The notes beneath the pieces were generated by a model. It made no database searches and was not told where the DNA came from. It worked only from the letters and a program-made list of their open reading frames with translations. The position numbers and the translations under genes were made by a program. From Pseudohongiella sp. (GTDB lineage Bacteria; Pseudomonadota; Gammaproteobacteria; Pseudomonadales; Pseudohongiellaceae): DNA of 42,863 bases. This document shows, one piece after another, positions 14,270 to 34,893 of this stretch. The stretch spans positions 1-42,863 of the forward strand of contig JABMOK010000160.1 in the NCBI GenBank assembly GCA_013204155.1, given 5' to 3'. The number at the start of each line of letters is the position of its first letter. Position 1 is the stretch's first letter.

Positions 14270-15637
14270 TTAATCCGAGCCAGCTTGCGCACTTACATTG
14301 CGTTCGGCAAGCAACTTTTCGTATTCCTCCTGACCAAGATAGGTCACATCCACCCAGTTATGGGCCATCTCGTCCACTGTGCGATCACCCCAACCGACCC
14401 ATTGATTCGGATCCGGGTTATAGGGGTTGCTGGCGGTGTTGTCGTGCCAGGCGCGGGTGATAATCATCGTGCCCTTCGGCACTAGCGGCGCGGAATCTTC
14501 ATCGAAGATATAGTTAATCTGCCAGTTCCACTGGAAGTTATCGACGAATGCCAGCACTTCCCGATTACCGTCGGGATAGATCGCTTCCATGGACATGGCC
14601 TTGCCGCGCATGTGCATATGCGGCTGGAAATTCTCCAGTCGAGCCGGCGCAGACAATACGAAAGTACCCTGGGTAACCGCGATCTCACCCGGCGGGATAT
14701 CGAGGCTGTGGGGACCCTGAGCATCGAGCATGGACAGGATCGTGCGGTGTTGCGGAGGTTCGTCATGGAACCAGATACCGATTTCGACCTGGGTCTTCTC
14801 TACCCGCTCACCATTGGCGTGCAGGTGCATCTCCCACATAATTTGCGAACCGGGCATCATCAACTTGCCGGTGTCGGGTCGGAAGACCTGACCCGCCTTG
14901 CCGACTGCCCATTCCATGAACAGGCTCGGGCCAGGTTGCACATCGACGCCTTCGGGAATTCCGGCTTTGCCGTCGTCGTTCTGCAGCAGAAAAGCCAGTG
15001 AATGGTGGACTACCTTACGGCTTTCCGGGTTTTTGGGGCGAATCTCGATAGCCTTCACCCACTTCTCCTCCGTCAGTCCTGTCGGCGTGACCGGACGGAA
15101 CCATTTGTCCTGGCTTACCGCGGGCAGATCGAAAACATCCGACTCCACTACCAGGTCAGGGGGATTGCCGATCTCATCCTGTAGGCGCCAGATCAATGCT
15201 TCAGTGAATTGGCGCGGCGCCGGAGCCAGGCTTTCATCACCCTCCTGCGCACCCTGATCCGCCCAGGCAAGGATTGTTTGCCGCTCTTCTTCGGTCAGTC
15301 CGCGGTCATTGGCAAAATCCTGGATGCCGACATCGGGATTGATATGCCAGGGTGGCATCACCCGATTGGCCACTCGATAGCGGATCACCGGGGCAAACAC
15401 CTTGGCCTGCTCATAGGTCAGCAATGACATCGGCGCGATGGAGTCTGGCCGGTGACACTCCTGGCATTTTTCCTGGAATATGGGCGCCACGTCCTGCGCC
15501 CAGGTAACTGCGCGATCTCCCTGGCTTGTGGCATCCTGCGCCATCGTCAGGGCAGGGAAAGCCAGCACTGTAATCGCCACTACCAGGCTGTTACGCCCTT
15601 TCTTGTTGTCTTTAACCGTTTGCATAATTCCAAACAT
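14270..15637 (-). CDS. Cytochrome c / type II copper monooxygenase (PHM-like), copy 1
   Basis: A 455-residue exported protein; GAGGAGG precedes the ATG. The signal peptide ends near residue 33. A c-type heme domain has CQECH at 58-62. The following PHM-like region keeps all copper ligands of peptidylglycine alpha-hydroxylating monooxygenase: HH at 211-212 and H271 or H273 (CuA/CuH), HMH at 340-342 (CuM), and Met424 in RTVDEMAHNW, which parallels the CuM Met motif DEMCN. PHM normally takes electrons from ascorbate; the fused heme domain suggests cytochrome-delivered electrons instead. It lies 80 bases downstream of the beta-sandwich-like gene in one transcription unit. The substrate is unknown. 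Confidence 0.85.
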   Translation of the reverse strand: MFGIMQTVKDNKKGRNSLVVAITVLAFPALTMAQDATSQGDRAVTWAQDVAPIFQEKCQECHRPDSIAPMSLLTYEQAKVFAPVIRYRVANRVMPPWHINPDVGIQDFANDRGLTEEERQTILAWADQGAQEGDESLAPAPRQFTEALIWRLQDEIGNPPDLVVESDVFDLPAVSQDKWFRPVTPTGLTEEKWVKAIEIRPKNPESRKVVHHSLAFLLQNDDGKAGIPEGVDVQPGPSLFMEWAVGKAGQVFRPDTGKLMMPGSQIMWEMHLHANGERVEKTQVEIGIWFHDEPPQHRTILSMLDAQGPHSLDIPPGEIAVTQGTFVLSAPARLENFQPHMHMRGKAMSMEAIYPDGNREVLAFVDNFQWNWQINYIFDEDSAPLVPKGTMIITRAWHDNTASNPYNPDPNQWVGWGDRTVDEMAHNWVDVTYLGQEEYEKLLAERNVSAQAGSD

Positions 15638-15717
15638 CAGACCTTGCCTCCTCGAGACTGTTTCGCCTCAAATTGATTCTCAAGCATTCAAATATTTTCA
15701 GCTACTCTCTACTACTC

Positions 15718-16599
15718 TTAATTGCTCACATTTACCTTAACGAAACTATTGCTCCAGCAACACTGGGAATGACCGGCCGTTTCAGGGCCGCCAATTTCGG
15801 TCAGCCGAACCCGCAACAGGTAATCGCCAGCCTGGCTGAAAGTGACCTCGGTGCTTGCCTTGCCGCCGGCGACGGGCACCTTCGCGCTGGGCTCGCTGAA
15901 TGTTACTTCGCCCGGGCCCTGGTGCTGGAACCACGCCAGGTCTAGCGGCGGCGTGTCCGCTGCGCCACCGAGAAACAACGCAATCAGTCCGCCGCCGACA
16001 CCGTCATCTTTAGCCCAGGCATCGATCGTTAGCGGCTCGCCAACCTTGGCTCGTAGCGGACCAGTCGTGATGCCGCCCGGGCCGTGACCCATGGGGCCGC
16101 CTTCCTGAAAGCGAATTTCCGGGGGGAAGTTGCCGCTGGCATCGCCGGCTATGGCGTCGATGATGTAGTCGGCTTTTAAGTTGGCGGGAATATGAAAGGT
16201 TTTGCCCTGGTTCTGCAGGTGCCACACTACTTGCTCTTTATAGTCGGCAGGGATTTTCACGGTAAACACGCCCCAGTGCCGTCCAGTGACGAAGTGGGTG
16301 GCTTGGCCCTGATTGGCCTCACCGTCGGGCGCGCCGATAATGCGGTTCGCCGGACCCGTGGGAATATCGAGTACTTCCTGCGTATTACGGTTGTAGTAAC
16401 CAAATGACAGCGCAATGCTGCCGTCTTCAGTTTCGTACCAGCCCTCATAAGCCGGCGTCACCGTCTGCCCTCCGGTGATACCGAGATCTTTACCTAGCGG
16501 CAAGAGTTCAACCGCTAAAGGTGTGCCTTGTGCTTGCACAGCGACTGCTGCCAGCATCGCGACTGACGCCACGATTAAATTTGTGAGTGTTTTCTGCAT
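15718..16599 (-). CDS. Exported module partner protein, copy 1
   Basis: A 293-residue exported protein with signal peptide (to about residue 23) and a perfect SD (AAGGAGG, 4 bases before the ATG). It is a paralogue of the protein at 21409-22404: shared pattern AYEGWYETEDGSIALSFGYY, LDIPTGPAN, QATHFVTGRHW, VVWHLQNQGKT, LKADYIIDA, and an Ig-like C-terminal domain ending in a strand pattern (GDYLLRVRLTE...FVKVNV). No heme, copper or catalytic motif is visible, so it is probably beta-rich and structural or ligand-binding. It is first in the operon with the PHM-like cytochrome. Function not recognised. Confidence 0.75.
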   Translation of the reverse strand: MQKTLTNLIVASVAMLAAVAVQAQGTPLAVELLPLGKDLGITGGQTVTPAYEGWYETEDGSIALSFGYYNRNTQEVLDIPTGPANRIIGAPDGEANQGQATHFVTGRHWGVFTVKIPADYKEQVVWHLQNQGKTFHIPANLKADYIIDAIAGDASGNFPPEIRFQEGGPMGHGPGGITTGPLRAKVGEPLTIDAWAKDDGVGGGLIALFLGGAADTPPLDLAWFQHQGPGEVTFSEPSAKVPVAGGKASTEVTFSQAGDYLLRVRLTEIGGPETAGHSQCCWSNSFVKVNVSN

Positions 16600-17061
16600 T
16601 CGTCCTCCTTGAGCATGGTCAGTTCTGGGCTACTTCTTTAACTAAAACAATTACACCCCTGGGGCATCATATCGCAACCAGGACCCGATGTGACCCCCTT
16701 ACTTCAGTAAGGGGCTCAGGATTGCGGGCTTAAGCATTAGAGCCATCACCAGTTAAATCATCACCAGTTAGAACTATCCATAGCCAAGAGAGATTTATGG
16801 TTTTAGGCTTATAGAAATGCAAACACCAGCCGTGTTCACCGACTCGGCTTCGCGTGCAGAGCATATAAATGCCTAATGAAATCCATCGCGAGCTATTGAA
16901 ATTTGCGGGGGATATCTAGGGTAAGCGTAGATAGCCGAAATCAGCGTGTGCTATAGATAGAATGTGCGTTGGGTGGTTAGCCGAAGCGGCTAGACTCTAA
17001 TTCCAGAATCTGGATTAAGTGTTCAGGAACTACTGCCTGGTTACCCCCTGATCCCGCTTAA
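16600..17061. other. Intergenic region with hairpin and short direct repeat
   Basis: This region should hold the promoter of the 16599-14270 operon. CCCCTTAC at 16695-16702 and GTAAGGGG at 16707-16714 form a perfect 8-bp stem with a 4-base loop but no T-tract. A short direct repeat, CATCACCAGTTA, occurs twice near 16744-16768. No coding support. Confidence 0.5.
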
Positions 17062-18583
17062 TCAAGATACCAGTTCCAGAGTTAATCTATCCTTCTCGGC
17101 CGGAAGATAAAAACTTAATGTCGTACCAAAGCTGGTACTCGCAGTAACTTCGATATGTCCTTTGTGCATTTCTATAATAGATTTCGCGCTTGGCAGTCCC
17201 AGGCCGCTAGCATTCGCTTTACTGGTAAAAAAAGCAGCAAAAATCTTGCTCTCAGTTTCCTTGGGAATTCCTGTTCCCAGGTCAGTTACCGATACCTGGA
17301 TATAACGTCCGGGCTTGAGCGGTAAATCAATATCCGATTCAGAGAGAATATTCTGCGCGGTAATGATAATGCCCCCTCCGTTTGGCATGGCCTGCTTTGC
17401 ATTGATAACAAGATTGTTAATTACCAGACTAATCTGTTCACAGTTTATGTTAACGCGCCACAAATCTGGCGCTATATCGATTTTCGGCGTTACAAGAGGG
17501 CCTTGCAAACAAAGAGACACACTCTTCCTTAACAATTCTCCGACGTCGGCATATTCCAGCTTCGGTCTTGCAATTTCGGAAAATGCCAAGAGTTGCTGAG
17601 TCAAGTCTCTTGACCACGCGGCGGCGGCTTCAGTCTTATCCAAATATTCTTTGCTCGCCGATTGCGATTCCGCAGTTTTGGCCAAGCTCAAATTGGTAAT
17701 AATGCCTGTCAATTGATTGCTAAGTTCATGAGCGACGCCGGCAAGCAATAAGCTTGCGGATTCGAGCTTGGCGACTTTCAATAATTCTCTTTCAATTCTC
17801 TCGTTACTCGAATTATCAACAATCGATGTGAATACCCGCTCAACCCCAGCGATATCAACGCTGAAACTGGTTACACTACAAAGTTGTTCCTCTCCTGTTT
17901 TTGTTAGAACCTTTAAATTGCTTTGTATCGGATTGCTGCTAGATCTAACTCTGTTAATAACATCAGCTAACTCAGCCTGGCTCGTATTGCCAAATATCCC
18001 CAAATTTGAAAGAGTGCAACCCACGACATCGTCTAATGAACAGTCAAAATTGTTTAACCAGGAATCGTTAGCATACATAATTGCACCGGTTGACAGGTCG
18101 GTCATGCAGCACGGATCAGTATTCGAATGAAAAAAGGATGAGAACAATTCTATAGAGTTTCTTAATTCATTGATCAACAATTTATGCGCAGTCATGTCGC
18201 GCGTAGTGCCTTGTATTGCAATCATCTCCCCCTCTGGAATTCAACACTGGCGTTGAACACATTTCTCCGATGAACTCTGAGCCATCCTTTCGTTTATAAA
18301 CCAGTTCAAACCTTCTGGTTTCGTTGCCAAATTTCCCCCCATTGCGATTGCTGAGGGACTCAATAACCATTTCGATACTTTTCTCGGTAAGTAACAACGG
18401 AGAATAGACATTAAAAGGTAAGCCGATCAGTTCGGCTGAATCGAAGCCGGTCATCGTTTTAACTGAGGGGCTGAGGTAGGTGAATACCGCCTCCGGTGTC
18501 GCGCGCCAAACCCAGTCGATTGACGCATTTAGCACTTCGTGGAAGAGATCTTTTTTAATATCCTGAACAGCAAAAGGTTTCAT
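17062..18583 (-). pseudogene. PAS-PAS sensor histidine kinase with a frameshift
   Basis: Two overlapping frames together read as one kinase of about 500 residues. The upstream frame, from the ATG at 18583, encodes a PAS domain (IDWVWRATPEAVFTYLS ... VYKRKDGSEFIGEMCSTPVL). The downstream frame resumes with GEMIAIQGTTRDMTAHK, a second PAS domain, HisKA with the phosphoacceptor in LAGVAHELSNQLTGIITNLS, and HATPase_c (NNLVINAKQAM, DLGTGIP, GLGLPSAKSIIEMHKG). The frame break is a run of five G on the coding strand at 18228-18232; four G would restore the frame. It is a soluble kinase with no receiver and no adjacent response regulator. It may be a true mutation, a phase-variable tract or a sequencing error. 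Confidence 0.8.
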
Positions 18584-19099
18584 AATTATTGCTACTCTAT
18601 GTTTAGAACAGGGCGAAGAGTTTTGCCTGCTAGCCTGTATTGTCAGAAACCGCAATTCCGCTAAAAAACTGGCCGGATTTATAGGGTTTTCAAAGCAATT
18701 TCTGCGATCGCAATTGCCAAATTGCTCTACCATTTCAATTCATTACACAATGGCCATGTAGCACCAATAACAAGAGCTAGGCGCGGAGTCAAGTCTCTAA
18801 TCGCAAATCGTGAGTGTGGAGTATACAGCCCAGGGTGGCGCGGCTGATGTGATAAATGTCATCTATGCCCATTTATGTCCCATTCACTGTAATAGTCACT
18901 TTTCTCGTGGGATTTGCTAGTTTGCTTGCGAGTCAAAGGAATGTATTCGCAGACCTCCGCATCATGGATGTCATCTGTGACCTGGCGAATTGGCCAAATA
19001 TTCGACACCCGAATATTTCCTCGAATTACCATCTTCATTTTTCTGAATGGTTTTTGGAGTGTCGAGCATGCATTCTGTGCACGCTCTTTTCTCCAGAGG
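18584..19099. other. Intergenic region with an AT-rich inverted repeat
   Basis: About 500 bases lie upstream of the kinase. AAATATTCG at 18996-19004 and CGAATATTT at 19010-19018 form a perfect 9-bp inverted repeat. Its centre resembles the repeat at 20362. A short plus-strand frame here starts hydrophobic but then degenerates; I do not accept it. Confidence 0.5.
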
Positions 19100-19534
19100 C
19101 TAGCGGGCTCTCGTTGGAATCCACGCGATAATGAGTGGCTCTGTACCGATATTTCGTGTCTTGTGGCCTATTCCTTTGGTGTCCTCAATTAGTAATATAC
19201 TGCCCATTGGGAATTCCCTGACCTCGCCGTCTTGCACTTCTATTTCTCCGCTGCCCGCGAGAACAATTACCCACTGGGGTATTGGAGTCGGACTCCAGTC
19301 CTGAGTGAATCCTGGAGGCAGTAACAAGTAGCCGATTGAAGTTGCAGAGGTAAAAGGGCTAACTCTGGCGCCCATTGCGTTCTCTTCTCCGAACGGGATT
19401 TCACCTTCAGCAAAGTGCGACACACCGGTTCCATCGGAATACATTCTGGTGAATGGCATTGCGCGGGGAGAACTTTCCGAGGACACAAGAGGTGCCAGCA
19501 GGGTGACGATTAACAGGAATATGAGTCGAAACAT
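19100..19534 (-). CDS. Exported cupin-domain protein
   Basis: A 144-residue protein with a signal peptide (MFRLIFLLIVTLLAPLVSS). The mature part has a single cupin fold: GYLLLPPGFTQDW, then VIVLAGSGEIEVQDGEVREF (first cupin motif) and FPMGSILLIEDTKGIGHKTRN (second motif). The first-motif metal ligands are weak because GFTQDWSPTP lacks the usual HxH, so it may be non-enzymatic. It is exported like the surrounding oxidation genes. The substrate is unknown. Confidence 0.75.
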   Translation of the reverse strand: MFRLIFLLIVTLLAPLVSSESSPRAMPFTRMYSDGTGVSHFAEGEIPFGEENAMGARVSPFTSATSIGYLLLPPGFTQDWSPTPIPQWVIVLAGSGEIEVQDGEVREFPMGSILLIEDTKGIGHKTRNIGTEPLIIAWIPTRAR

Positions 19535-19918
19535 TTTTAGGCCGCTCCCTACGTTCTTTTCCTTAGAGAGTGAGCATCTATACTATCCAGTCGTGAACAC
19601 AGAATCGTGTTGACGCTCAGAATTGAATAGAGGATAGGCTCCCATGAAGGACAAAGCCTAGCAATATGCCTCGGGCAATAACGGAACTGGTTCGAGTTTT
19701 GGGGAGATAAACAGGGAGGGAATAGTTGCGCAAAAAGTTTTCTGGAGAGACTTTTGGGTCGAACCTTGGAGCAGCTTTAGGGTTGGGTCTCGGCTCATGG
19801 CACGAGCATTAACAATGCCTTATTCAATCGCCAATTGCTGGCAGGAAGGGCCTGCCCTTATGAATTCCTGGCGGAGAGGACGAGGCGCTTCGAAAGAAAA
19901 GCTCTTTTCCTGAAGCAG
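19535..19918. other. Intergenic region, no supported gene
   Basis: About 380 bases separate the cupin start (minus strand) and the next minus-strand stop. They contain the cupin promoter but no motif I can name. Confidence 0.45.
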
Positions 19919-20251
19919 TCAGGCTTCTCTGATATAGCTGGTCCTGGCCCACAATTTCTTTGTATTACCCCCAACAGTTGTTTCAAACTGGGAGTATTTG
20001 CCATCGCCAGGCATCATGACAGTGCGCAGCACTTTTACTCCAGCTCGCCGGGTCAGATTTGAACACTTGCCTTCGCTGATAAGAGAATTTCTAATAGCCG
20101 GGACTTCAGAAACCGCAGCGAGTGTTGGCAAGTCATTACATACCAAGCCTGAAACGGTGCCAGATTTCGGCCCATCCATACTGTTTAAACTGTCACTGCA
20201 GGCAACACCTGAAATAGCAATACACAGCAATAGACAAAACTCTATTTTCAT
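19919..20251 (-). CDS. Small putative lipoprotein of unknown function
   Basis: A 110-residue protein from the ATG at 20251, chosen because GGAGG lies 5 bases upstream and a signal peptide follows (MKIEFCLLLCIAISGVAC). The Cys at residue 18 in a GVAC lipobox-like site may be lipidated. Two further Cys (CNDLP and GKCSN) could form a disulfide. The C-terminal half is basic with a VKVLRTVMMPGDGKYSQF pattern. No family recognised. A longer upstream extension in the same frame is unlikely. Confidence 0.65.
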   Translation of the reverse strand: MKIEFCLLLCIAISGVACSDSLNSMDGPKSGTVSGLVCNDLPTLAAVSEVPAIRNSLISEGKCSNLTRRAGVKVLRTVMMPGDGKYSQFETTVGGNTKKLWARTSYIREA

Positions 20252-20361
20252 AAAAGCCTCCGAACTAGAAGTGGTTAGACGCCGATTAAGCCGGTATCCA
20301 CATTCCTTTACGACACTTCCAGTAAAAACATTTAGAGAAAGATTTGGATGGCTAAGCCCGC

Positions 20362-20439
20362 AAATATTGGACGCCCGCATATTTCACCCATTTCTTCGAG
20401 TTAACTTCTTCACTCAATTGAATATTTATGCGGGTGTCC
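20362..20439. repeat. Inverted repeat pair, GGACRCCCGCATA type
   Basis: GGACGCCCGCATATTTC at 20369-20385 and, inverted, GAATATTTATGCGGGTGTCC at 20420-20439 form a BIME-like pair with about 34 bases between. The preceding AAATATTG at 20362 resembles the element at 18996. Probably REP-like or remnants of a small mobile element. Confidence 0.65.
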
Positions 20440-20441
20440 AG

Positions 20442-20472
20442 TAACTACTTCATTAACTACTTCATTAACTAC
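20442..20472. repeat. 12-bp tandem repeat
   Basis: TAACTACTTCAT is repeated twice and then partly a third time (TAACTAC), immediately after the inverted repeat pair. Confidence 0.9.
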
Positions 20473-20496
20473 AGGTCAATATCCAGTTCCTCAAAA

Positions 20497-21039
20497 CTAT
20501 TGCAACAATCTATAGTCAGGCGACATGATATGATCCATCTGCTTTATTTGATTCAGATAAAAGGACGGCGGCCTGGCATTCTCTCCGAAGGAGAAGTTAA
20601 AACTCCCCTTGACGAGCACCCCATTCGCATTAAGAGTAGCCCATTCAACAGTGAAGTAATCCGCCTCTTCGAGTTCTGGTAAGGCGTGCATAAAGTGCAG
20701 GCCAGTCACCGGCTCATAACGAAAATCGATATCAATATAACCCCGCTCCGGATCCTTTAATGCCAGCTTCACTAGTCGCGTCTCATTCTCAAAATGTAGC
20801 ATGAGCGATTTGGGCGCTGCAGCAAGCACTTCATCGTTCGCCGGCATAGTCTCTACTTGCGCTGCAACCGCCATGTTGTGCATCTCATGCTGAGCCAGCA
20901 CCAGAGGACTCCATAAGACAAGAAAAAGAAACTTGATTAGCAGCCCTTTGATAGAAAAATTATTGTCGCTATTGTTGTCGCTAGGACGATCACTACGATT
21001 CGATATTTTAAGTCCCGTTTTACACTTTGACTTGCTCAC
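20497..21039 (-). CDS. CopC-domain periplasmic protein
   Basis: A 180-residue exported protein. I chose the GTG at 21039 because GAGGAG lies 6 bases upstream. A hydrophobic export segment (LLIKFLFLVLWSPLVLAQ) is followed by HEMHNM and then a CopC/YobA-like domain: DEVLAAAPKSLMLHFENETR, ALKDPERGYID, ADYFTVEWATLNANGVLVKG and a final SFNFSFG. CopC proteins bind Cu(II) at the periplasm and help its delivery or resistance. The N-terminal His/Met cluster would fit copper binding. It lies among copper monooxygenase genes, which supports a copper-supply role by inference. The long N-terminus before the export segment is unusual. Confidence 0.8.
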   Translation of the reverse strand: MSKSKCKTGLKISNRSDRPSDNNSDNNFSIKGLLIKFLFLVLWSPLVLAQHEMHNMAVAAQVETMPANDEVLAAAPKSLMLHFENETRLVKLALKDPERGYIDIDFRYEPVTGLHFMHALPELEEADYFTVEWATLNANGVLVKGSFNFSFGENARPPSFYLNQIKQMDHIMSPDYRLLQ

Positions 21040-21340
21040 GCCATTCTCCTCAAAATTGACTGTTACCAATCTGTCTTCACTATAAAATAATTTGATCACT
21101 GGGTTCGGAGATTGAGCCGCAGCCCGCTCTCATCGAATTCAGTACCAGGTAATAATAACTCGATAACTAATTGGCTTAAATCCTGCGAATGAAAGTAACT
21201 CAGAAATAAGTGACGAAGGCTGTTTAAGACACTGGTGGGCAGTATGCCCCGCAAGGTGTGGAACAAGTTGCACTCTCACTTAATGGAAAATAGCGCTCAA
21301 GGTATCTGAGATGCAGCGCGTTATCTTGCTCTGCAGATAC

Positions 21341-21375
21341 AAAAAAAACCAGGGAAAGAATTTCTTCCCCTGGTT
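21341..21375 (-). terminator. Rho-independent terminator
   Basis: AACCAGGGAAAGAA at 21347-21360 pairs with 21361-21375 (one mismatch) with almost no loop. On the minus strand the stem is followed by eight T (the A-run at 21341-21348). It ends the 23984-21409 transcription unit. Confidence 0.88.
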
Positions 21376-21408
21376 CTGCTTTCGTTCTAATCCATTTTTA
21401 TACGGCGG

Positions 21409-22404
21409 TTAGCGCGTCACATTCACAGTCAGGTACTGATCTTGAAAAAGCCCGCCATCATCCGCTCGACCCCAGAGCAGGTAGGTGCCGGGTTCGTCGA
21501 AGCTGACAGTTACTTCATAGATGCCATCTTCGGGTACGGCTGGGGGTACCCACAGCCAACTCCAGGGTGAATTAGCCGAAGGGCGCGTGTCTTCCCACGG
21601 TTTGATTTGCGGCGGATCGAAATGGACGGCATCTTGTACCGCTGTCGCGGTTTCGGGCGCGCGGTAAACATTCCAGGACAGGAACAGCCCATTATTTTTG
21701 GCTACAGTAGGCTTCGGCGGAGGCATCTTCATCATCATATTGCGAACCGTTTCAGGCGTTATGAAAGCCGCGGCTGCACCCCCGATTCGCGAGGCAAGCC
21801 CCATGGGGTTATGGGGTTTAGGAACGCCATCATCGCTTACCCGGGTCTGAAAACTCAGTGGCTGTCCCACCTTGACCGTTCGAATCTCGTCTCCGATTAA
21901 TTCCGCAACCGGTGGTATATTAGCCCTGATTTCTTCAGTGGACGTTCCCGCGCCCAGAGAACCGGTCTCCGACATGATAGTTACATTGTTTATTTTGTAA
22001 TCGGCCCTCAGAGTGGCATAGGCTTTTCGCGTCAAACCATTGGGGGAAGTCACTTCCCATACCAGTTCCTTGTCTCCAAAATCGCCAGGCACGACCACAT
22101 CAAACGTGAAGCGATTGCGGCGCGGCAGGAAATGCGTAGGCTGACCCTGGTCCGCTAGTCCTGGTGAAAAGAAGTTACTTTCACCCACTGGAATATCCAG
22201 CTCTTCTTCCCAGTTATGATTGAAGTAGCCGAATGTGAGGGTAATGGTCCCGTCGTCATTTGGACGCCAGCCTTCATAGGCCAGGTCGGTGTGCTGCCCG
22301 GTTTGGTAGGTATGTTTGGTGTATTCGTAGGGCTGCTGCGCAACCGCCAGATTAGACAGCAATGCCAAGGCCGCTGTCGATAGCACTAATAGAGTTTTTA
22401 GCAC
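21409..22404 (-). CDS. Exported module partner protein, copy 2
   Basis: A 331-residue exported protein from the GTG at 22404, chosen because AGGAG lies 7 bases upstream and a signal peptide follows (VLKTLLVLSTAALALLSNLAVAQ). It is a paralogue of the protein at 15718-16599: LAYEGWRPNDDGTITLTFGY, LDIPVGESN, QPTHFLPRRNRF, LVWEVTSPNG, LRADYKINNV, and the Ig-like C-terminus GTYLLWGRADDGGLF...YLTVNV. It has an insert of about 40 residues that copy 1 lacks. No catalytic motif is visible. It is second in the operon, after the PHM-like cytochrome, whereas copy 1 is first. Confidence 0.78.
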   Translation of the reverse strand: MLKTLLVLSTAALALLSNLAVAQQPYEYTKHTYQTGQHTDLAYEGWRPNDDGTITLTFGYFNHNWEEELDIPVGESNFFSPGLADQGQPTHFLPRRNRFTFDVVVPGDFGDKELVWEVTSPNGLTRKAYATLRADYKINNVTIMSETGSLGAGTSTEEIRANIPPVAELIGDEIRTVKVGQPLSFQTRVSDDGVPKPHNPMGLASRIGGAAAAFITPETVRNMMMKMPPPKPTVAKNNGLFLSWNVYRAPETATAVQDAVHFDPPQIKPWEDTRPSANSPWSWLWVPPAVPEDGIYEVTVSFDEPGTYLLWGRADDGGLFQDQYLTVNVTR

Positions 22405-22482
22405 GTTGTTACTCCTAAATTTAACATCTTGCATTTCTTACCTTCAGAGGGAATTTCCCAAGATTAATAGCTCGTTCGTTTG

Positions 22483-22520
22483 TGAGCGGCGAGGCTCCAT
22501 TTTGAGAGCCTCGCCGCTCA
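22483..22520. promoter_or_regulatory. Perfect 15-bp inverted repeat inside the operon
   Basis: TGAGCGGCGAGGCTC at 22483-22497 and its perfect complement at 22506-22520 flank an 8-base loop between the two module genes. There is no T-tract on either strand, so it is more likely an mRNA-stability or processing hairpin than a simple terminator. Confidence 0.75.
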
Positions 22521-22574
22521 GTTACTTGATAACTCGGAAGCTGTTCTCGCCTCCGTCAACGCTGAATTCTTCAG

Positions 22575-23984
22575 TTACTCACTGCCACCTGAAGAATCTG
22601 CAATTGGCCATACCAGAGGTGCCAGACACAGTGGGCATCCTATGACGTGATCGTTGGGTCCGAGGTTAAGGACCGTGCGCCGCTTTTCCATTTCTTCCTG
22701 GAATTGTTCATCGGTCATAGTTACCCGGATTCCCAGGTCGATAAACATATTGGTAACCGAGCGGTTGCCAGAACCCTGCCAGTTACGTGCATCTGGTACA
22801 TTGGGATTGGCTGTAGTGTTATCGAAATAGCCGGTGATGTGCATGATGGTGCCCTTGGGCAACAACGGGGTGTAGTTGTCAGCGAAGGGATAGCCTCTCA
22901 CCCAATTGTGGTCATAGCCCACACAGGAGAGTGTCTCGACTGAGTAGCCCCAGATAGCCTCCAGGCACATACGCTCACCAGGGGCATGCAGATGCGGCTC
23001 GAAGGTGATGACCTTGGTGTTTTCAGTCAGTACCGTGTAGGCATGTAACTCCTGATCTTTTGCGTCGCCTTCGACACTGATATCAACGCCATTTCCCAAG
23101 ATACTGATACCAGTCTTGTACTTCGGCTCATAGCCTTTCGGATGGAAAGTGAAGCCTAGCTGTAGATGACCGACGGTATCACGTCCGTTGGAGTGCATGT
23201 GCACCGAATCGGTAAAGAAGGCGGAATTGGCTTTGAGTAAGGGACCTGCGTCCGGGTCGAATACATCGCCATTGCGGCCCACTTCGTGTACTGGCCAAGA
23301 GACAGATTCACCTTGAACCACAGTATCATTCTCGTCTAACACCTCAGTACGCCAAATCATGTGGTGAAAGATAAACAGGCCACCGACGGTGTCGGAAGCC
23401 GCAGGGCCGGTACTCACATCGTTCACTTCCACTACTTCTATGGATTTCACATAGCGATCTTCTTTGAGGCCAGTTTTAACACTGGGAAGCTCGCCCCACC
23501 AGTCGGGTCTGTCACCCGCCATGGTGAAATCTTCGAGATTCACAATCAGGTCTGGTTCGCCCAGCTTCCACTTGGTAGTGTCATCGAAGGACAGTGGCGC
23601 CGGTGCATCCGCCACATTACCCTCGGGTGTACCGCTTCGGGCCCAGGTAGAGATGGCCGCAATTTCTGCGTCGCTCAGGGATGGGTCACTCTTGAAATGT
23701 TGAATGCCAATCTCTTTCTCGGCGTACCAAGGCGGCATGGCGCCTGCGCGGTCACGAAGGCCTGTCTTGTATTCTATGAGCCCGGCATAGGGAGCGACCT
23801 CGTCATAGTTGGTCAATGCCATGGGCGCCACGCCACCAGGGCGGTGACAAGTCTGGCAGCTGCGCTGCAGAATTGGTTCGATATCCTTGTGAAACGTGAC
23901 TTCCTGAGCCTGGATCGCCGGTGAAAGCGCCATAGCCGAGAAGGCCAGTAGTAAACTTTTGTTCATTAATGCTGAAATTCGCAT
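22575..23984 (-). CDS. Cytochrome c / type II copper monooxygenase (PHM-like), copy 2
   Basis: A 469-residue exported protein; GAGG lies 8 bases before the ATG. The signal peptide ends near residue 26. The heme motif CQTCH is at 43-47. PHM-type ligands: HH at 207-208, H262 or H264 in VHMHSNG, HLH at 331-333 and Met413 in RSVTNMFID. It differs from copy 1 by TNM in place of DEM before the Met, a longer middle insert and a C-terminal tail with an extra CPLC pair (450-453), which could form a disulfide. It is first of the second two-gene module and divergent from the AraC-type regulator, about 350 bases away. Confidence 0.85.
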   Translation of the reverse strand: MRISALMNKSLLLAFSAMALSPAIQAQEVTFHKDIEPILQRSCQTCHRPGGVAPMALTNYDEVAPYAGLIEYKTGLRDRAGAMPPWYAEKEIGIQHFKSDPSLSDAEIAAISTWARSGTPEGNVADAPAPLSFDDTTKWKLGEPDLIVNLEDFTMAGDRPDWWGELPSVKTGLKEDRYVKSIEVVEVNDVSTGPAASDTVGGLFIFHHMIWRTEVLDENDTVVQGESVSWPVHEVGRNGDVFDPDAGPLLKANSAFFTDSVHMHSNGRDTVGHLQLGFTFHPKGYEPKYKTGISILGNGVDISVEGDAKDQELHAYTVLTENTKVITFEPHLHAPGERMCLEAIWGYSVETLSCVGYDHNWVRGYPFADNYTPLLPKGTIMHITGYFDNTTANPNVPDARNWQGSGNRSVTNMFIDLGIRVTMTDEQFQEEMEKRRTVLNLGPNDHVIGCPLCLAPLVWPIADSSGGSE

Positions 23985-24210
23985 GGTTATTTCCTCTCTT
24001 TAAAACACAGGGACTAATTGCAGAAGGTCTGAAATTAGATTACTTAAATCGGAACGAGCAACATTCTATGATCAATTAAACAGGATTTGCCGATGAATTT
24101 CTTCCTGATAATTAATGGATACTGATTAATTTGCAAAATTTTCTAAAAATTGCGCGTAAGCTCTACAGGCTCCTATTGAGGGAGATTGAAGGAACTGGTT
24201 TTCAGAATCT

Positions 24211-24240
24211 GTCAGAAATTTCAATAATCCGTCAAAAACT
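24211..24240. promoter_or_regulatory. Candidate AraC-type direct-repeat operator
   Basis: GTCAGAAATT at 24211 and GTCAAAAACT at 24231 are direct repeats spaced exactly 20 bp, two helical turns, the usual geometry for AraC/XylS dimers. They lie between the divergent regulator and PHM-like cytochrome genes, upstream of both. Confidence 0.4.
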
Positions 24241-24337
24241 TACTCGGAAATCAGCCAAAAACCCGTTGTTTTCTGGGTAGTTAGCTGAATATTGTGGATA
24301 AATTCCAAAGCCTGAGTAACTATAAAATTTCTGTAAA

Positions 24338-25531
24338 ATGGGGTATGCTGAGCGACTCTCTGCACGGCAAATCCCTACTCGCTGTTTCATTGCTATGCAG
24401 GCGACTAATACTCTCTTAATGAGCCCAGTTATGGACAACCTTACTGCCCTTTTTTCAGGTCTCGCTATTTCTCAGCTCATATTTCTGCAGTTTTTCGCTT
24501 TTTCGAATTTCCGCCATCAAAGGCAAGCCCGGATTCTAATGTTGTTCTGCACTTGCCTTATCGCCTTTCTCCTTGGCGGAATACCCGTAATCAGTTCCTA
24601 TGCATTAATTGATCTAATTTTGTCACTTTTGGCCATTTTGACACCCGCCAGCCTGTGGATATTCTCGTTACTATTTTTCAGGGACGACGAGAAGCTACCA
24701 CCCTACGGCTTAAGCTTAATACTTTTCTATTTCATACTACGGTCATTATCTCTTTCTCTTGAGTATCTAGATTATGATCTCGGTCAATTTATTGGCTATT
24801 ATATTGGTTATATGATTCCAGTCCTAGTGATGCTCGGCTTGACTGTTCATGTGGTTTATATGGGTATCGAAGGGCGCAAGACCGATTTGATTGAGGAAAG
24901 GCGAAAAATCCGAATTCCCTTCGTGATCAGTAAGGGCGTTGTGGTTCTTTTCACCTTGGTCTTCAGTGCGCTGTCAACGCTGGTAACTCTACTGTCCCCC
25001 TCGAATGATTCCTTGCCCTATTTTGATGTAATTACTCTCGCGATTGTCGCTTCTGTGTTTTTCTGGACGCTGGGTTTAAACCTTGCCGTTTTTCGGGCCA
25101 GCAACAATGTCGAATTATTGCTACAGAATGCCCCCACCATAGATTTGGAGCAGGGTTACGGGGAAGACGAAGCGGGCATGAGCATGCTTAGCAAAGAAGA
25201 GAAATTGATGAGAAAAATCAATGAGGCGATGGACGAGCAAAAACTTTATCAAGAGGCAGGCTTCACTATAGCAATGCTGGCCAACAAACTGTCAACATCT
25301 GAGCAACGATTGAGAACGACAATCAACAAAGCCATGGGATTTCGAAATTTTAATCAATTCCTCAACTACTATCGGATTCGAGAAGCCACTCATTTGATCG
25401 CGAAAACGGAAGAGCCCATTGCCAGCATAGCAATGGACGTTGGCTACAATTCGCTGTCTTCATTCAATAAGGCATTCAAGGAAAATCTTGGATTGCCTCC
25501 GCGCAAGTTTCGAAACACGTCACAAGCTTAG
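24338..25531 (+). CDS. Membrane-anchored AraC-family regulator
   Basis: A 397-residue protein with an N-terminal membrane domain of about 7 hydrophobic helices (roughly residues 30-250), a cytoplasmic linker and a C-terminal double helix-turn-helix of AraC type. The HTH region reads FTIAMLANKLSTSEQRLRTT and IASIAMDVGYNSLSSFNKAF, followed by KENLGLPPRKFR, the standard family ending. Such 7TM-AraC regulators sense a membrane or periplasmic signal directly. None of the possible starts (24338, 24395, 24431) has a clear SD; I keep the longest. Divergent position and nearby direct repeats suggest it controls the PHM-like module. Confidence 0.85.
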   Translation: MGYAERLSARQIPTRCFIAMQATNTLLMSPVMDNLTALFSGLAISQLIFLQFFAFSNFRHQRQARILMLFCTCLIAFLLGGIPVISSYALIDLILSLLAILTPASLWIFSLLFFRDDEKLPPYGLSLILFYFILRSLSLSLEYLDYDLGQFIGYYIGYMIPVLVMLGLTVHVVYMGIEGRKTDLIEERRKIRIPFVISKGVVVLFTLVFSALSTLVTLLSPSNDSLPYFDVITLAIVASVFFWTLGLNLAVFRASNNVELLLQNAPTIDLEQGYGEDEAGMSMLSKEEKLMRKINEAMDEQKLYQEAGFTIAMLANKLSTSEQRLRTTINKAMGFRNFNQFLNYYRIREATHLIAKTEEPIASIAMDVGYNSLSSFNKAFKENLGLPPRKFRNTSQA

Positions 25532-25621
25532 CGCCTTAATAAATAGGGAGTCGCTTGGCAGCGACGACCATTCGTTCAGTTATTATTTAATTTGTGCCCC
25601 TTCTGGATTTGAAATCACGCT

Positions 25622-26854
25622 TTATTGATACAGCGCTTCTCGAGCGGCCGCATGGACCTGAAGGGAATATCGGGTGTTGGAATTCTGAATCATCCCGATC
25701 ATCACGATGTTTTCTACCGGGTCGATCCAGAACCAGGAGCCGGCGATACCCCACCACCAGTGGGTGCCTTTCGGCGCACCGTTGTATTTTTCAGGTTCGT
25801 CGACAATGGCAAAATCCACACCGAAGACATTGCCTGGATACAACCCGGCAATATTCCCCACAGCTTCTGGCAACTGATTACTGCGCATAATCTGCACAGC
25901 TTTTTCAGAAAGAATGCGTACGCCATTGAGTTCGCCACCATTGAGATGCATCTGCGCAAACTTCATATAATCGCTCGCAGTTGAAGTCAGACCGCCGCCA
26001 CCGGAAAAGAACTTCGGCTTCTGCAGAAATGAGCCGTTGTCGACACGGCGCAATGTGCCGTCGGCAGGGAGATACTGTCGGGCCAGGCGATCCGCCTTGT
26101 CGGCTGCTACGAAGAAACTTGTATCGACCATGCCAAGTGGAGCAAAGATACGTTGCTGTAAAAACTGATCGAAGGTTTGACCCGACAAGACTTCAACCAG
26201 GTATCCCTGGACGTCGACGGAAATGCTGTACACCCATTGGGTTCCGGGTTGGTAACCCAGCGGAATATCACCCAAGGCAGGAATGGATTCGGCCAGGGTG
26301 TAATTGGGCAGATCGTTAATCCCGGCAGCCGAATAGGCTTCTGCAACCGGGCCTCTTGAGAGGGGCGGGGTATACAAGAGCCCGCCGGTATGGCTGACCA
26401 GTTCGCGAATCGTCATTGCATGCCCTGCCGGTTCGGTTTTGAGACTGCCATCGTCATTCTCAGAGACGAAGACTGTCATGCCCGTCAGTGCCGGTATGTG
26501 CTTCTCGAGGGGGTCGTCCAACTGAAACTTCCCTTCATCGTGGAGAATCATCAGCGCTGTCCCGGTGATCGGTTTGGTCATGGAAAAAATTCTGAAGATT
26601 GAATCTGCAGCCATGGGCACTTGATCTTCAACGTTCTGATAGCCGAACGTTTGATTCATTTGAATTTTTCCGTCCTGTGCAACCATTACCACTGCTCCGG
26701 ACAGCATGCCTTCATCGACGCGCGCTTGTAGATCGCTGGCAATAGCATCCAGCCTGGACTTCTCGATTTCTGCCGAGGCAAACGTGGAGGTCAATGTCAG
26801 CAGAATGGCTGCGACGGCGACTCTTACTGAACGAATATTGACTGTCGATTTCAT
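25622..26854 (-). CDS. Exported serine hydrolase, class C beta-lactamase family
   Basis: A 410-residue exported enzyme (signal peptide ending near TFASA). The catalytic motif SMTK is at 91-94 and a Tyr209-Ser motif in GTQWVYSISVD matches the second active-site element. A late HWWWGIAGSWFWIDP occupies the third-motif region typical of EstB-like esterases and AmpC-like transpeptidase relatives. These families hydrolyse esters or D-amino acid peptides rather than beta-lactams in most marine bacteria. GGGG lies about 9 bases before the ATG. It faces the regulator convergently across 90 bases with no strong terminator. Substrate unknown. Confidence 0.85.
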   Translation of the reverse strand: MKSTVNIRSVRVAVAAILLTLTSTFASAEIEKSRLDAIASDLQARVDEGMLSGAVVMVAQDGKIQMNQTFGYQNVEDQVPMAADSIFRIFSMTKPITGTALMILHDEGKFQLDDPLEKHIPALTGMTVFVSENDDGSLKTEPAGHAMTIRELVSHTGGLLYTPPLSRGPVAEAYSAAGINDLPNYTLAESIPALGDIPLGYQPGTQWVYSISVDVQGYLVEVLSGQTFDQFLQQRIFAPLGMVDTSFFVAADKADRLARQYLPADGTLRRVDNGSFLQKPKFFSGGGGLTSTASDYMKFAQMHLNGGELNGVRILSEKAVQIMRSNQLPEAVGNIAGLYPGNVFGVDFAIVDEPEKYNGAPKGTHWWWGIAGSWFWIDPVENIVMIGMIQNSNTRYSLQVHAAAREALYQ

Positions 26855-27051
26855 GAGCGATTCCCCATTGCTTGATCAATGTTTAATACTAAGTCGCTCA
26901 TTAGAGCAATTCTGCCTGACTACTTCCAGCTATCCATCTCACTTCTGCTTCAACCTGGCGAATAGGTAGTGGCTTGAATCAGGGGGGGGGAGGGATTACA
27001 AAAATGTGCTATGGCGTTGTGGCGCTGATTCGTTTCATTTCCCCGGCCAAA

Positions 27052-27088
27052 CAAAACGCCCCAACATAGTCTATGTCGGGGCGTTTTG
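27052..27088. terminator. Terminator hairpin downstream of the third PHM-like gene
   Basis: CAAAACGCCCC at 27052-27062 and GGGGCGTTTTG at 27078-27088 pair perfectly, with an inner ACATAG/CTATGT extension separated by one mismatch. The minus strand reads GTTTTGTTT after the stem, giving a modest U-rich tail. Confidence 0.82.
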
Positions 27089-27159
27089 AAACTACGCTGC
27101 GAGCTTCTGTACAAATTCGCCGAGCGGAATTGTACAGGGCTCAGGAAATGGCAGGCAGG

Positions 27160-28899
27160 TCAATCATTGCCACCATTGTCCTGGTTAAGTTCTTTCCAGC
27201 GCATGGAACCGAAGAACATCTCATCCCAGCTCTGTTCGCCCCAGCCCACATCAATAGACGGGTCGGGATTGGCACGGTTCTGAGCAGAATTATCGAAGGC
27301 GCCCACGGCTGTCAGCTTGGTCCCCGCCGGCATGAATTTCGGTTCTTCATAGGTATAAGCCCACTGCCAGGCGTAATCATACTTGGCGATGTTGATCAGT
27401 TCCTCGTTAGTGCCGTCCGGATAGTCTGCGTAGAAGCGCATGTACTTACCACGGAAATGCATGTGCGAGAGGAAGCTGTACAGCTCCGCGTCCTTGGTCA
27501 GGGTTACGCTGGCTGTCTGAATAAACTCCGGATCATAGGCCGGAATGTCAGTCCAGGTAGGGGTGAATATGCACGCACACTGACCGGACATTCTTTCTGC
27601 GGGGACCTCACCTTCTGGATAAAACCAGACTCCGACCTCACCGGCGTCTACAGTTTCCCGGCCATTGGTGGTGTAGTGCAATTGCACCGCAAGTTCGGAA
27701 CCGTTGCGTAGCAGTCCCCCGGTATTAGGAGGATTCATACGTGGTTCGGCGCCAGGCACATACGCCACGAGACCCGGGCCATTTGCACCGCCACGATTGC
27801 CAGAGTTTCTGTAGCCGCGGCCCTGGCCGGCAAATTCCGGTTCGATGATGCGGTTCAGGGTATGGTGCAATACCGTGCGGTCACCGGCAATATACTGGCT
27901 GGCACGTACCCAGCGATCCTTGCCAATGTCGATGGGCTCGCTGACGGCATAGATATAATCCAATACACCGGTGGCGGGTATGGATTGGGGTGGAATCTTG
28001 ACGATGTAGTCGGGTTCACCAAAGGCCCATTTGCTTGCTGGCCAGGTCTTTTCTGCCAGTGGATCTGAGTCGCCGTCTGCTGGTGAACCTGCAGCTATCC
28101 AATGCAATATTTTCTGGATATTGTTGTCTCCCACCAAACCGTCATTGATGAAGTCTCCGATGTGCGGGTCGAGCTGGCCGGGCGGCATGCGCTTGGTCAT
28201 CAACACCTCGCGAATCATGGGTGACCAGGCCTGCATCATGGCATGACTGTTCATCGCGAATGGTGCGATGCCGCCCTCACGGTGGCAACTGGCGCAGTTA
28301 TCCAGAATGAGGGGGGCGATCTCTTTCTCGTAAGAAGGCGTGACTTGATCGTGGGCTAGTTTGGCCGGATAGGCTATAGCCTCTCCGGTGCTCGCTACAA
28401 CCGGATTGGCAATAGGCTGCCCAGCCAACTTGGCCTCCAGGGCCTTCTCAAGCGCGGTGCCGACCGGGCCTTGAAACTCTACGGTGAAAGATTTGGGATT
28501 AAAGAGTAAGACTTCCCCGGTTTTGTCCACCCCCAGGGCTTCGGAAATCAGCTGTGTATCGTCCATCAATACCTTGACGCTGCTGCCAAGGCGGGCAATT
28601 TCCGCCGCCACCGACGCGCGATCCTGATTGCCGGTCGGATTGATCATAAAAAACGCGATTCCCTGTTCTGCATAGCGAGCCTGCAGTGCCTCAAACCCGT
28701 CTATTGCATTGGCAGTGGCTGCGCTACCGTTGGCCTGCACCAGAAAGGCGATGGCGGCATGATCGTCATACCAACTCATCTGGTGGGCATAACCCTGCTG
28801 ATCAAGCAGGGTGAAATCACCTACTCGATCGGCGGCGCTGGATAATGCTGGCACCAGGGCCATCATCGTATACAAGCCTATGGTGAATAATTTTCTCAT
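27160..28899 (-). CDS. Redoxin-like domain + cytochrome c + PHM-like copper monooxygenase, copy 3
   Basis: A 579-residue exported three-domain protein; GAGGAG precedes the ATG by 6 bases. After the signal peptide (to about 23), residues 25-160 have a thioredoxin/redoxin-like sequence (VGDFTLLDQQGYAHQMSWYD, AFLVQANGSAAT, VDKTGEVLLFNP), but the CxxC position reads NGSA, so it cannot do dithiol chemistry. The heme motif CASCH is at 202-206. PHM-type ligands: HH at 345-346, H408 in AVQLHYTTNG, HMH at 479-481 and Met561 in QSWDEMFFG. It is the longest of three paralogues and stands alone. A perfect FNR-type palindrome lies about 130 bases upstream. Confidence 0.87.
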   Translation of the reverse strand: MRKLFTIGLYTMMALVPALSSAADRVGDFTLLDQQGYAHQMSWYDDHAAIAFLVQANGSAATANAIDGFEALQARYAEQGIAFFMINPTGNQDRASVAAEIARLGSSVKVLMDDTQLISEALGVDKTGEVLLFNPKSFTVEFQGPVGTALEKALEAKLAGQPIANPVVASTGEAIAYPAKLAHDQVTPSYEKEIAPLILDNCASCHREGGIAPFAMNSHAMMQAWSPMIREVLMTKRMPPGQLDPHIGDFINDGLVGDNNIQKILHWIAAGSPADGDSDPLAEKTWPASKWAFGEPDYIVKIPPQSIPATGVLDYIYAVSEPIDIGKDRWVRASQYIAGDRTVLHHTLNRIIEPEFAGQGRGYRNSGNRGGANGPGLVAYVPGAEPRMNPPNTGGLLRNGSELAVQLHYTTNGRETVDAGEVGVWFYPEGEVPAERMSGQCACIFTPTWTDIPAYDPEFIQTASVTLTKDAELYSFLSHMHFRGKYMRFYADYPDGTNEELINIAKYDYAWQWAYTYEEPKFMPAGTKLTAVGAFDNSAQNRANPDPSIDVGWGEQSWDEMFFGSMRWKELNQDNGGND

Positions 28900-33304: not shown

Positions 33305-33378
33305 CGTTATAGCCTCTACAGATGCAAGATTTACCGGATCATACAACAAAAGAGGCCATAGTTATAATAGGGAAAATA

Positions 33379-33554: not shown

Positions 33555-34625
33555 CTATTTCCCAAGAAGCAACTTCTGCGCGCGAGAATTAGAGGTCTCT
33601 GCCACATACAACACGTCTTCAGACGGACAGGCGAGGCCATGAACGCCAGAAAACTCTCCCAGGTTCCGGCCCGAATTACCAATGACGCCCAACACTTCTC
33701 CCTGCAGGGTCGCTTTGATAATGCGGCCTGGAAAGGTGGTTTCCCCGACGAAAATCACGTCGCTGCCTGGTGGGATACACAAGGCATTGGGGGCGCCGTT
33801 GGCGCTAATCTCGGTCAGGTCGGCAGGCGTGGGTCCGTTAACCGCCTTTGAGCCGGGACGCACCGGGGTGGCTACCCGGAATTCACGCAGGTAATTGCCA
33901 TCGGTGTCGAACACTTGAATGCGGGCATTGGAACGGTCCCCCACATAGATGTTGTCATCCTTGTCGATGGCGATGCTATGGGGGAGTCGAAACTGTCCGG
34001 GGCCGGTGCCGGGTTCGCCCCAGGATTTTTCCCAGTCACCGTTGTAGTCATATTTGGCGACGCGGGAATTGATATAGCCATCGGTGATGTAAATGTTGCC
34101 TGCGGAATCAAACGCCACATCGGTGGGCTCCCGAAATCGGCCGTCGGCGTGAGGTCGGGGTGTGTCCACATGCTCAAAGGGTCGGGCCTCTTCGGATACG
34201 GACTCTGTCTTTCTGCCAAACACCCACACGACTCTGCCGGCAGGATCCATGCGCACCACCATGTTGGAACCCTTGTCCACGGTCCAAATGTTGTCGTTGC
34301 TGTCTATGCGCACTCCGTGTGCAAACGACCAGGCATATAAGCCTCGCCCGAGTTCTCGTTGGTAGCGGCCGCTGGCATCGAATTCAAATAGCTGCGCCGC
34401 ATGTATGCCGTAAGCGGGCCCACCCCCGGAGGGGCTGGATCGATGGAACACGAAAACATGGCCCTGTGAATTCACGGCAATGGCGGAGACTTCACCAAAA
34501 TTCATGCCCTGGGGTAGCTGAAAGAAGTCGGGGACGGATTCAATCGAAATCTGCGGGGCATATTGAGCGAACGCGCAAGGCGCAGCAATCAGCAAGCAGG
34601 CTATGAAGCTTATTAGTCTTCCCAT
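33555..34625 (-). CDS. NHL-repeat protein, PAL-like, all metal His kept
   Basis: A 356-residue exported NHL propeller from the ATG at 34625 (GAGG 9 bases upstream), signal peptide ending at ...CAFAQ. Its blades match eukaryotic peptidylamidoglycolate lyase: FAHGVRIDSNDNIWTVD, FREPTDVAFD, YITDGYINSRVAKYD, QFRLPHSIAIDKDDNIYVGD and GVHGLACPSEDVLYVAE. The three Zn-binding His positions of PAL (AHG, LPH, VHG) and the active-site Tyr (DGYxNSR) are all present, unlike the 8725 homologue. If active, it would cleave an alpha-hydroxyglycine-type carbinolamide. There is no lipobox, so it is periplasmic or secreted. It lies upstream of the PQQ dehydrogenase on the same strand, about 250 bases apart. Confidence 0.87.
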   Translation of the reverse strand: MGRLISFIACLLIAAPCAFAQYAPQISIESVPDFFQLPQGMNFGEVSAIAVNSQGHVFVFHRSSPSGGGPAYGIHAAQLFEFDASGRYQRELGRGLYAWSFAHGVRIDSNDNIWTVDKGSNMVVRMDPAGRVVWVFGRKTESVSEEARPFEHVDTPRPHADGRFREPTDVAFDSAGNIYITDGYINSRVAKYDYNGDWEKSWGEPGTGPGQFRLPHSIAIDKDDNIYVGDRSNARIQVFDTDGNYLREFRVATPVRPGSKAVNGPTPADLTEISANGAPNALCIPPGSDVIFVGETTFPGRIIKATLQGEVLGVIGNSGRNLGEFSGVHGLACPSEDVLYVAETSNSRAQKLLLGK

Positions 34626-34893
34626 CGGGATATTCCTCGATTTCAGCATAACTAGATTTCTGTAGTTTATCTCGCCTTACTAAAAGGCGCGATCAACCCG
34701 GCAAGCTGGGACGATAACCCATCCATGCCTCGCCGTCCTCAATGTTCAGCTCGGGAAACAGAGCGGCCGACGAACAACAGCGGCCGGCGCAGCTCGATCC
34801 AATGGGCGTCTCATATGCTTTGACGGCTTGGCTTATAGCCAAAATTTACGGATCAAAGTATTCTGACCCCCTTTGGCGGTATAGGGTAAGACC

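Follow-up and report, generated by a model that had tools for sequence, protein, structure and literature searches.

What does a bacterium do with exported proteins that carry a heme-binding motif in front of the copper ligands of an oxygenase? The question is raised by a 42,863-nucleotide stretch of Pseudohongiella sp. DNA (contig JABMOK010000160.1 of assembly GCA_013204155.1, positions 1 to 42,863; hereafter the window), in which three genes encode such proteins. We read them, with a probability of roughly two in three, as belonging to a branch of the PHM/DBH dicopper monooxygenase superfamily that is bacterial and in which a c-type cytochrome precedes the two-domain copper core on the same chain and is its natural electron donor. 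Animals use this type of core to make hormones and neurotransmitters. An excerpt of PMC4846438 describes the PHM/DBH enzymes as a small class found in eukaryotes, in which the copper site CuH (three His) is regarded as the one that transfers electrons and CuM (two His and a Met) as the one that binds O2 and hydroxylates the substrate.

The three genes lie at the coordinates given by an original prediction made from the bare sequence, but on the minus strand; the plus-strand translations contain stops. Copy 1 (14270..15637, 455 aa) carries CxxCH at 15452-15466, HH at 15002-15007, the CuH histidine His271 at 14825-14827, HxH at 14612-14620 and Met424 at 14366-14368. In copy 2 (22575..23984, 469 aa), whose modeled PHM fold spans residues 142-427, the same motifs are found at 23844-23858, 23361-23366, 23199-23201 (His262), 22986-22994 and 22746-22748 (Met413), and in copy 3 (27160..28899, 579 aa) at 28282-28296, 27862-27867, 27676-27678 (His408), 27457-27465 and 27217-27219 (Met561). 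The translated frames bear out a single CxxCH per protein, at residues 58, 43 and 202 of copies 1, 2 and 3, as well as the predicted HH (211-212, 207-208 and 345-346), HxH (340-342, 331-333 and 479-481) and Met, and the signal-like hydrophobic N terminus of each, judged by eye, agrees with the proposed export. Missing from the prediction was the AhpC/TSA-like (thioredoxin-like) domain at the N terminus of copy 3 (residues 24-140, 28480-28830; 26.6 bits against a Pfam cut-off of 26). Five own-genome kin likewise have such a domain in front, the proteins of this type being 566-609 aa long; the domain of copy 3 contains no cysteine.

How constant are these residues across the family? Alignment A1 comprises 20 paralogues from the own genome, of which L021 is truncated at a contig end. 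Here, H211, H212, H271 and M424 (copy 1 numbering) are invariant, and C58, C61, H62, M94, H340 and H342 are conserved to at least 90%. Two larger sets comprise full-length sequences: a main set of 103, with 19 from the genome itself and 84 from other genomes, and a second set of 105 open reading frames (ORFs) on IMG/VR contigs. The main set retains CxxCH, M94, H211, H212 and H271 in 103/103 sequences and H340 and H342 in 102/103, and the M424 column is Met in all 101 sequences that have a letter there, the other two being truncated. The IMG/VR set has CxxCH, M94 and the CuH and HxH ligands in 105/105 and the CuM Met in 103, with two gaps. Judged from the alignments, the six-ligand pattern is far beyond chance. 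The third CuH histidine, previously left ambiguous, is best assigned to H271 (H262 in copy 2, H408 in copy 3), as it is the invariant one; the H273 column is His in 91/103. The heme motif is equally constant: a Met 32-38 residues after CxxCH is invariant in all 208 sequences of both sets, which would be the pattern of a His/Met electron-transfer heme, and CxxCH in an exported protein together with Met94 as candidate distal ligand is what the sequence of a c-type cytochrome should contain. The cbb3 oxidase subunit III type cytochrome c (PF13442) shares the CxxCH and the later invariant Met and matches 19/20 own copies at E up to 10 (best 6.9e-5; below the Pfam cut-off in copies 1-3), but the present family differs in its fusion to a putative copper oxygenase core.

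The connection to PHM and DBH is made by a structure model and by a bridging sequence. Comparison of modeled copy 2 with known structures, which the prediction had proposed, returned a two-domain PHM fold with DBH as the best Foldseek match (PDB 4zel, E 3.5e-10). PDB sequence searches with copy 1, the A1 profile and the paralogue L011:16813-18528 did not reach PHM. The bridge is the relative L142, which lies above the Pfam cut-off for both copper domains, PF01082 and PF03712; it aligns with DBH and PHM chains (best sequence match DBH, E 1.4e-12) as well as with copy 3 and the family, and via these alignments the CuH (HH + H) and CuM (HxH + Met) ligands are in register. Within the own genome, PF03712 is above cut-off in one paralogue and PF01082 nowhere. 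At E 1e-4, PF03712 matches 6/369 genomes of the class, own included, with CxxCH in all six proteins, and 0/14 control genomes; at E up to 10, it matches 3/14 controls and PF01082 2/14, none over the cut-off. Architecture, ligand conservation and the predicted fold of copy 2 thus support the proposed joining of cytochrome c to a PHM-type copper monooxygenase. DBH has the same six ligands, and its catalytic core is joined to other kinds of domain (excerpt of PMC4846438), whereas the N-terminal domain here is a CxxCH cytochrome. PHM, the catalytic core of PAM (PDB 1phm, 1opm), likewise differs from the present family, which has the cytochrome and, in copy 3, the AhpC/TSA-like domain, is bacterial and phage-borne, and features many paralogues and an Ig-like partner.

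Several observations weigh against this assignment. In copies 1-3, both copper domains and the heme domain remain below the Pfam cut-offs, structural identity to PHM is ~12%, and the CuH spacing from H212 to H271 (median 53) is shorter than the 70 of DBH. In addition, the sole exception among the 103 sequences, the own paralogue L010:10736-12436 on contig 58, has RxN in place of HxH with the remaining ligands kept; having lost both CuM histidines, it is perhaps degenerate or changed in function.

How could such a protein work? Following export to the periplasm, heme c would be attached and CuH and CuM loaded with copper. The respiratory cytochrome pool would supply electrons to the His/Met heme, which would hand them singly to CuH and onward to CuM; there, O2 would be activated and a small substrate from outside hydroxylated at a C-H bond. 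Where the animal enzymes use ascorbate, this family would rely on its attached heme. Copper loading, O2 chemistry, the route and source of the electrons and the type of substrate are what we infer from this architecture.

The original prediction of three paralogues is correct for the window but an undercount for the genome (3.48 Mb, 202 contigs, 94.65% complete), which has the gene in at least 21 places, 19 of them full length. In a relatives search of 29 genomes, 19 (own and 18 of the same genus) have 10-33 matches each, and 0/10 genomes from other families of the order match. With a phage protein as query, 61/61 genomes of the genus, own included, give 2-30 matches each, and only two of 397 other genomes of the phylum match, at no more than 31% identity. 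Across 370 genomes of the class, 61 match at E<0.001, mostly through short heme-domain matches, and full-length matches come from the own genome and four others, with at most four candidates scored per genome. The best 80 of at least 101 confirmed loci related to copy 2 are nearly all metagenome-assembled and come from records titled Gammaproteobacteria, Pseudomonadales, Pseudohongiella, Gemmatimonadetes, Acidobacteria/Vicinamibacterales and Palauibacter. A tblastn search of 72,556 plasmid records with copy 1 found nothing at E 1e-5.

And what about viruses? An IMG/VR scan with A4 gave 179 relatives, of which the best 80 were taken (L157-L227 among these loci). On contigs that also encode T4-type phage proteins, the family is represented by one to three ORFs. 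At loci with copies 25-28% identical to copy 2, the flanks encode a T4-type major head protein (L162, E 6.8e-160), clamp loader (L166), NrdB (L195), tail lysozyme (L177) and baseplate hub (L179), and 87 flank ORFs scanned at E 1e-10, of 134 eligible, yielded NrdB 12 times, the head protein 8 times and the clamp loader 7 times. A FastTree tree of 213 sequences (one method, midpoint root) groups the phage-collection sequences mainly into two clades. Clade A, with 71 members (support 0.96), is joined by one relative and three copies from the own contig 58 under a parent node of support 1.0; clade B, with 25 members (support 1.0), has copy 3 and two own paralogues as its neighbors (parent node 1.0). 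The remaining nine, namely L148, six in a clade that includes L149 and L153, and two in a pair that includes L155, may sit on bacterial contigs. Greedy clustering at 95% gives 38 A and 14 B sequences, and A is followed by B at 25/71 loci. The phage B proteins, at 374-437 aa, are too short for the thioredoxin-like domain and keep the heme domain.

The nearest non-phage sequence in the tree set is always an own-genome copy, at 68-77% identity for phage A and 51-54% for phage B, and the phage A protein L164 reaches up to 83% identity to same-genus genes. In the simplest reading, phages of this genus took the A and B genes from their hosts, with T4-type markers seen in part of the loci; since cellular sampling was seeded with copy-2-type genes, a closer cellular source may lie outside the genus. 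Taken as a set rather than locus by locus, the copies have the attributes of phage auxiliary metabolic genes, standing on phage contigs and being related to host genes. Viruses are known to carry amoC and pmoC, subunits of copper monooxygenases. The likeness lies in a phage carrying part of a host copper oxygenase; the differences are the enzyme family, the whole proteins with their own heme motif and the T4-type phages. Phages would carry two of these enzymes to support host metabolism during infection. We consider it an even bet that uncultivated T4-like phages of this lineage carry an A-B pair of self-contained, heme-reduced copper monooxygenases from two host paralogues, that infection adds a periplasmic O2-using oxidation, and that the family forms a large enzyme system of aquatic bacteria oxidizing dissolved organic matter. 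For the L177:1968-3281 protein, tblastn at E 1e-5 finds no counterpart among 50,697 INPHARED records of isolated phages. As side observations, a small (~105 aa) cytochrome c stands beside the phage copies L177 and L223, and by motif at 9/80 loci, and a phage contig encodes a CopC protein (L162:5066-5410).

Could the electrons come from elsewhere? The neighborhoods offer candidates. Copy 1 is preceded, 80 bases upstream, by a gene of an exported tandem Ig-like partner family (15718..16599, minus strand, 293 aa), and copy 2 has a corresponding exported tandem Ig-like protein (21409..22434, minus strand, 341 aa; model pLDDT 92); no partner gene lies within 1 kb of copy 3. The partner family has 12 rows in the own-genome search and accompanies 10/19 full-length own copies; the nine without it are L017, the six thioredoxin-fused copies and two members of the contig-58 tandem of three. 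In other genomes, 76/84 copies have it on their own strand at a distance of up to 1 kb, five are at a locus end and three are without it, a count that speaks mainly for the copy-2 type, as the relatives were fetched with copy-2-type queries. The partner profile has no match in the 80 IMG/VR loci. A structure search for a specific enzyme fold in the partner gave mostly Ig-like chains of low TM-score; the partner is probably a binding or docking subunit. Pyrroloquinoline quinone (PQQ) dehydrogenases, such as the large one at 31247-33349 (PF01011, 505 bits), recur at 18/95 loci of the neighborhood set (own genome, relatives, window). It is possible, if unlikely, that the PHM/DBH-like core is reduced by ascorbate, another small molecule, the partner or the PQQ dehydrogenase, with heme c as a redox sensor, structural part or electron exit: partner and PQQ-dehydrogenase genes are close by, and DBH, with its different fused domains, takes two electrons from ascorbate (excerpt of PMC4846438). 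However, CxxCH and the Met that follows it show the same constancy as the copper ligands, and the shortened phage B copies still retain the heme domain.

Putative copper-handling genes recur as well. A CopC-domain protein is encoded at 20497..21099 on the minus strand (PF04234, 37.6 bits), and CopC-domain ORFs number 22 at 15/95 loci. This recurrence, together with solved PHM structures that, from their titles, can hold nitrite or azide, would fit a protein that is no oxygenase and retains the PHM fold as a periplasmic copper-heme oxidase, a nitrite- or NO-handling protein or a copper-homeostasis protein. We find this slightly less probable still, as both copper sites, CuM Met included, are kept down to ~25% identity, which fits conserved O2 chemistry, and ~20 diverged copies would be superfluous for copper storage.

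NHL beta-propellers, finally, bring peptide amidation to mind: 15 propellers resembling PAL occur at 13/95 loci. Two lie in the window and match PAL (PDB 3fvz), one at 33555..34649 on the minus strand (E 1.8e-23), at most a candidate member of the system, the other at 8725-9867 (E 1.1e-24); TRIM NHL propellers score higher for both. The former has three His in PAL-like positions, DGY and DRSNARIQ; the column of the His that we take to be the third zinc ligand holds Glu in the latter, which also lacks the Tyr. PAL-like places in the own genome (25 search rows merged to 21) lie within 10 kb of a PHM copy in 6/21 cases (~1.7 expected) and within 5 kb in three (~1.0 expected), while 15/21 have no copy within 10 kb. 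A Pfam scan found no PAL/NHL match in the three window proteins, and a fused or always-linked PAL, as in PAM, is missing. Two residues before HxH, the 208 sequences have Glu (89), Gln (86), Leu (27), Arg (3), Gly (2) or His (1); Arg at this position would correspond to PHM Arg240, the anchor of the peptide carboxylate, and is absent in 205/208. The substrate is therefore probably not peptidylglycine and the family probably not PHM proper. A PAM-like amidating pair of these proteins with the PAL-like neighbors is very improbable and was set aside for its weak linkage and unconserved Arg.

The surroundings vary further. The contig-58 cluster is found with an amidohydrolase, a dipeptidase, a gamma-glutamyltranspeptidase, cupins, an MFS transporter and CstA. 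An exported-looking family, mostly of 270-360 aa, recurs near copies (L010:18575-19666 and 16 other loci; 19 ORFs at 17 loci); two of its members were scanned against Pfam and had no match above the cut-offs. In the window, a PAS-histidine kinase (17062-18733) is split into two overlapping ORFs of different frames, possibly by a frameshift or assembly error. Neighbors as varied as hydrolases, a PQQ dehydrogenase, a TonB-type receptor and CopC suggest that the ~20 paralogues serve as a set of enzymes for different substrates in dissolved organic matter.

Finally, we would like to place heme-fed copper monooxygenases into a wider context. In the open-access PMC literature, as far as its texts were covered and with subscription papers and most preprints outside the search, we recognized no paper on a heme-fused bacterial PHM or a phage copy. 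A dicopper core described as eukaryotic (excerpt of PMC4846438) appears here in Gammaproteobacteria, Gemmatimonadetes and Acidobacteria records and on phage contigs, with a putative built-in cytochrome. The same excerpt treats the electron path between the two distant coppers as an unsettled question; a heme on the same chain, as a visible one-electron donor, would make it directly testable. If these proteins are monooxygenases, a bacterial lineage devotes ~20 genes to a chemistry that we found assigned nowhere, and its phages carry two of them. Copies in bacteria and in the large viruses that probably infect them point to an uncharacterized oxygen-using chemistry that matters to both.
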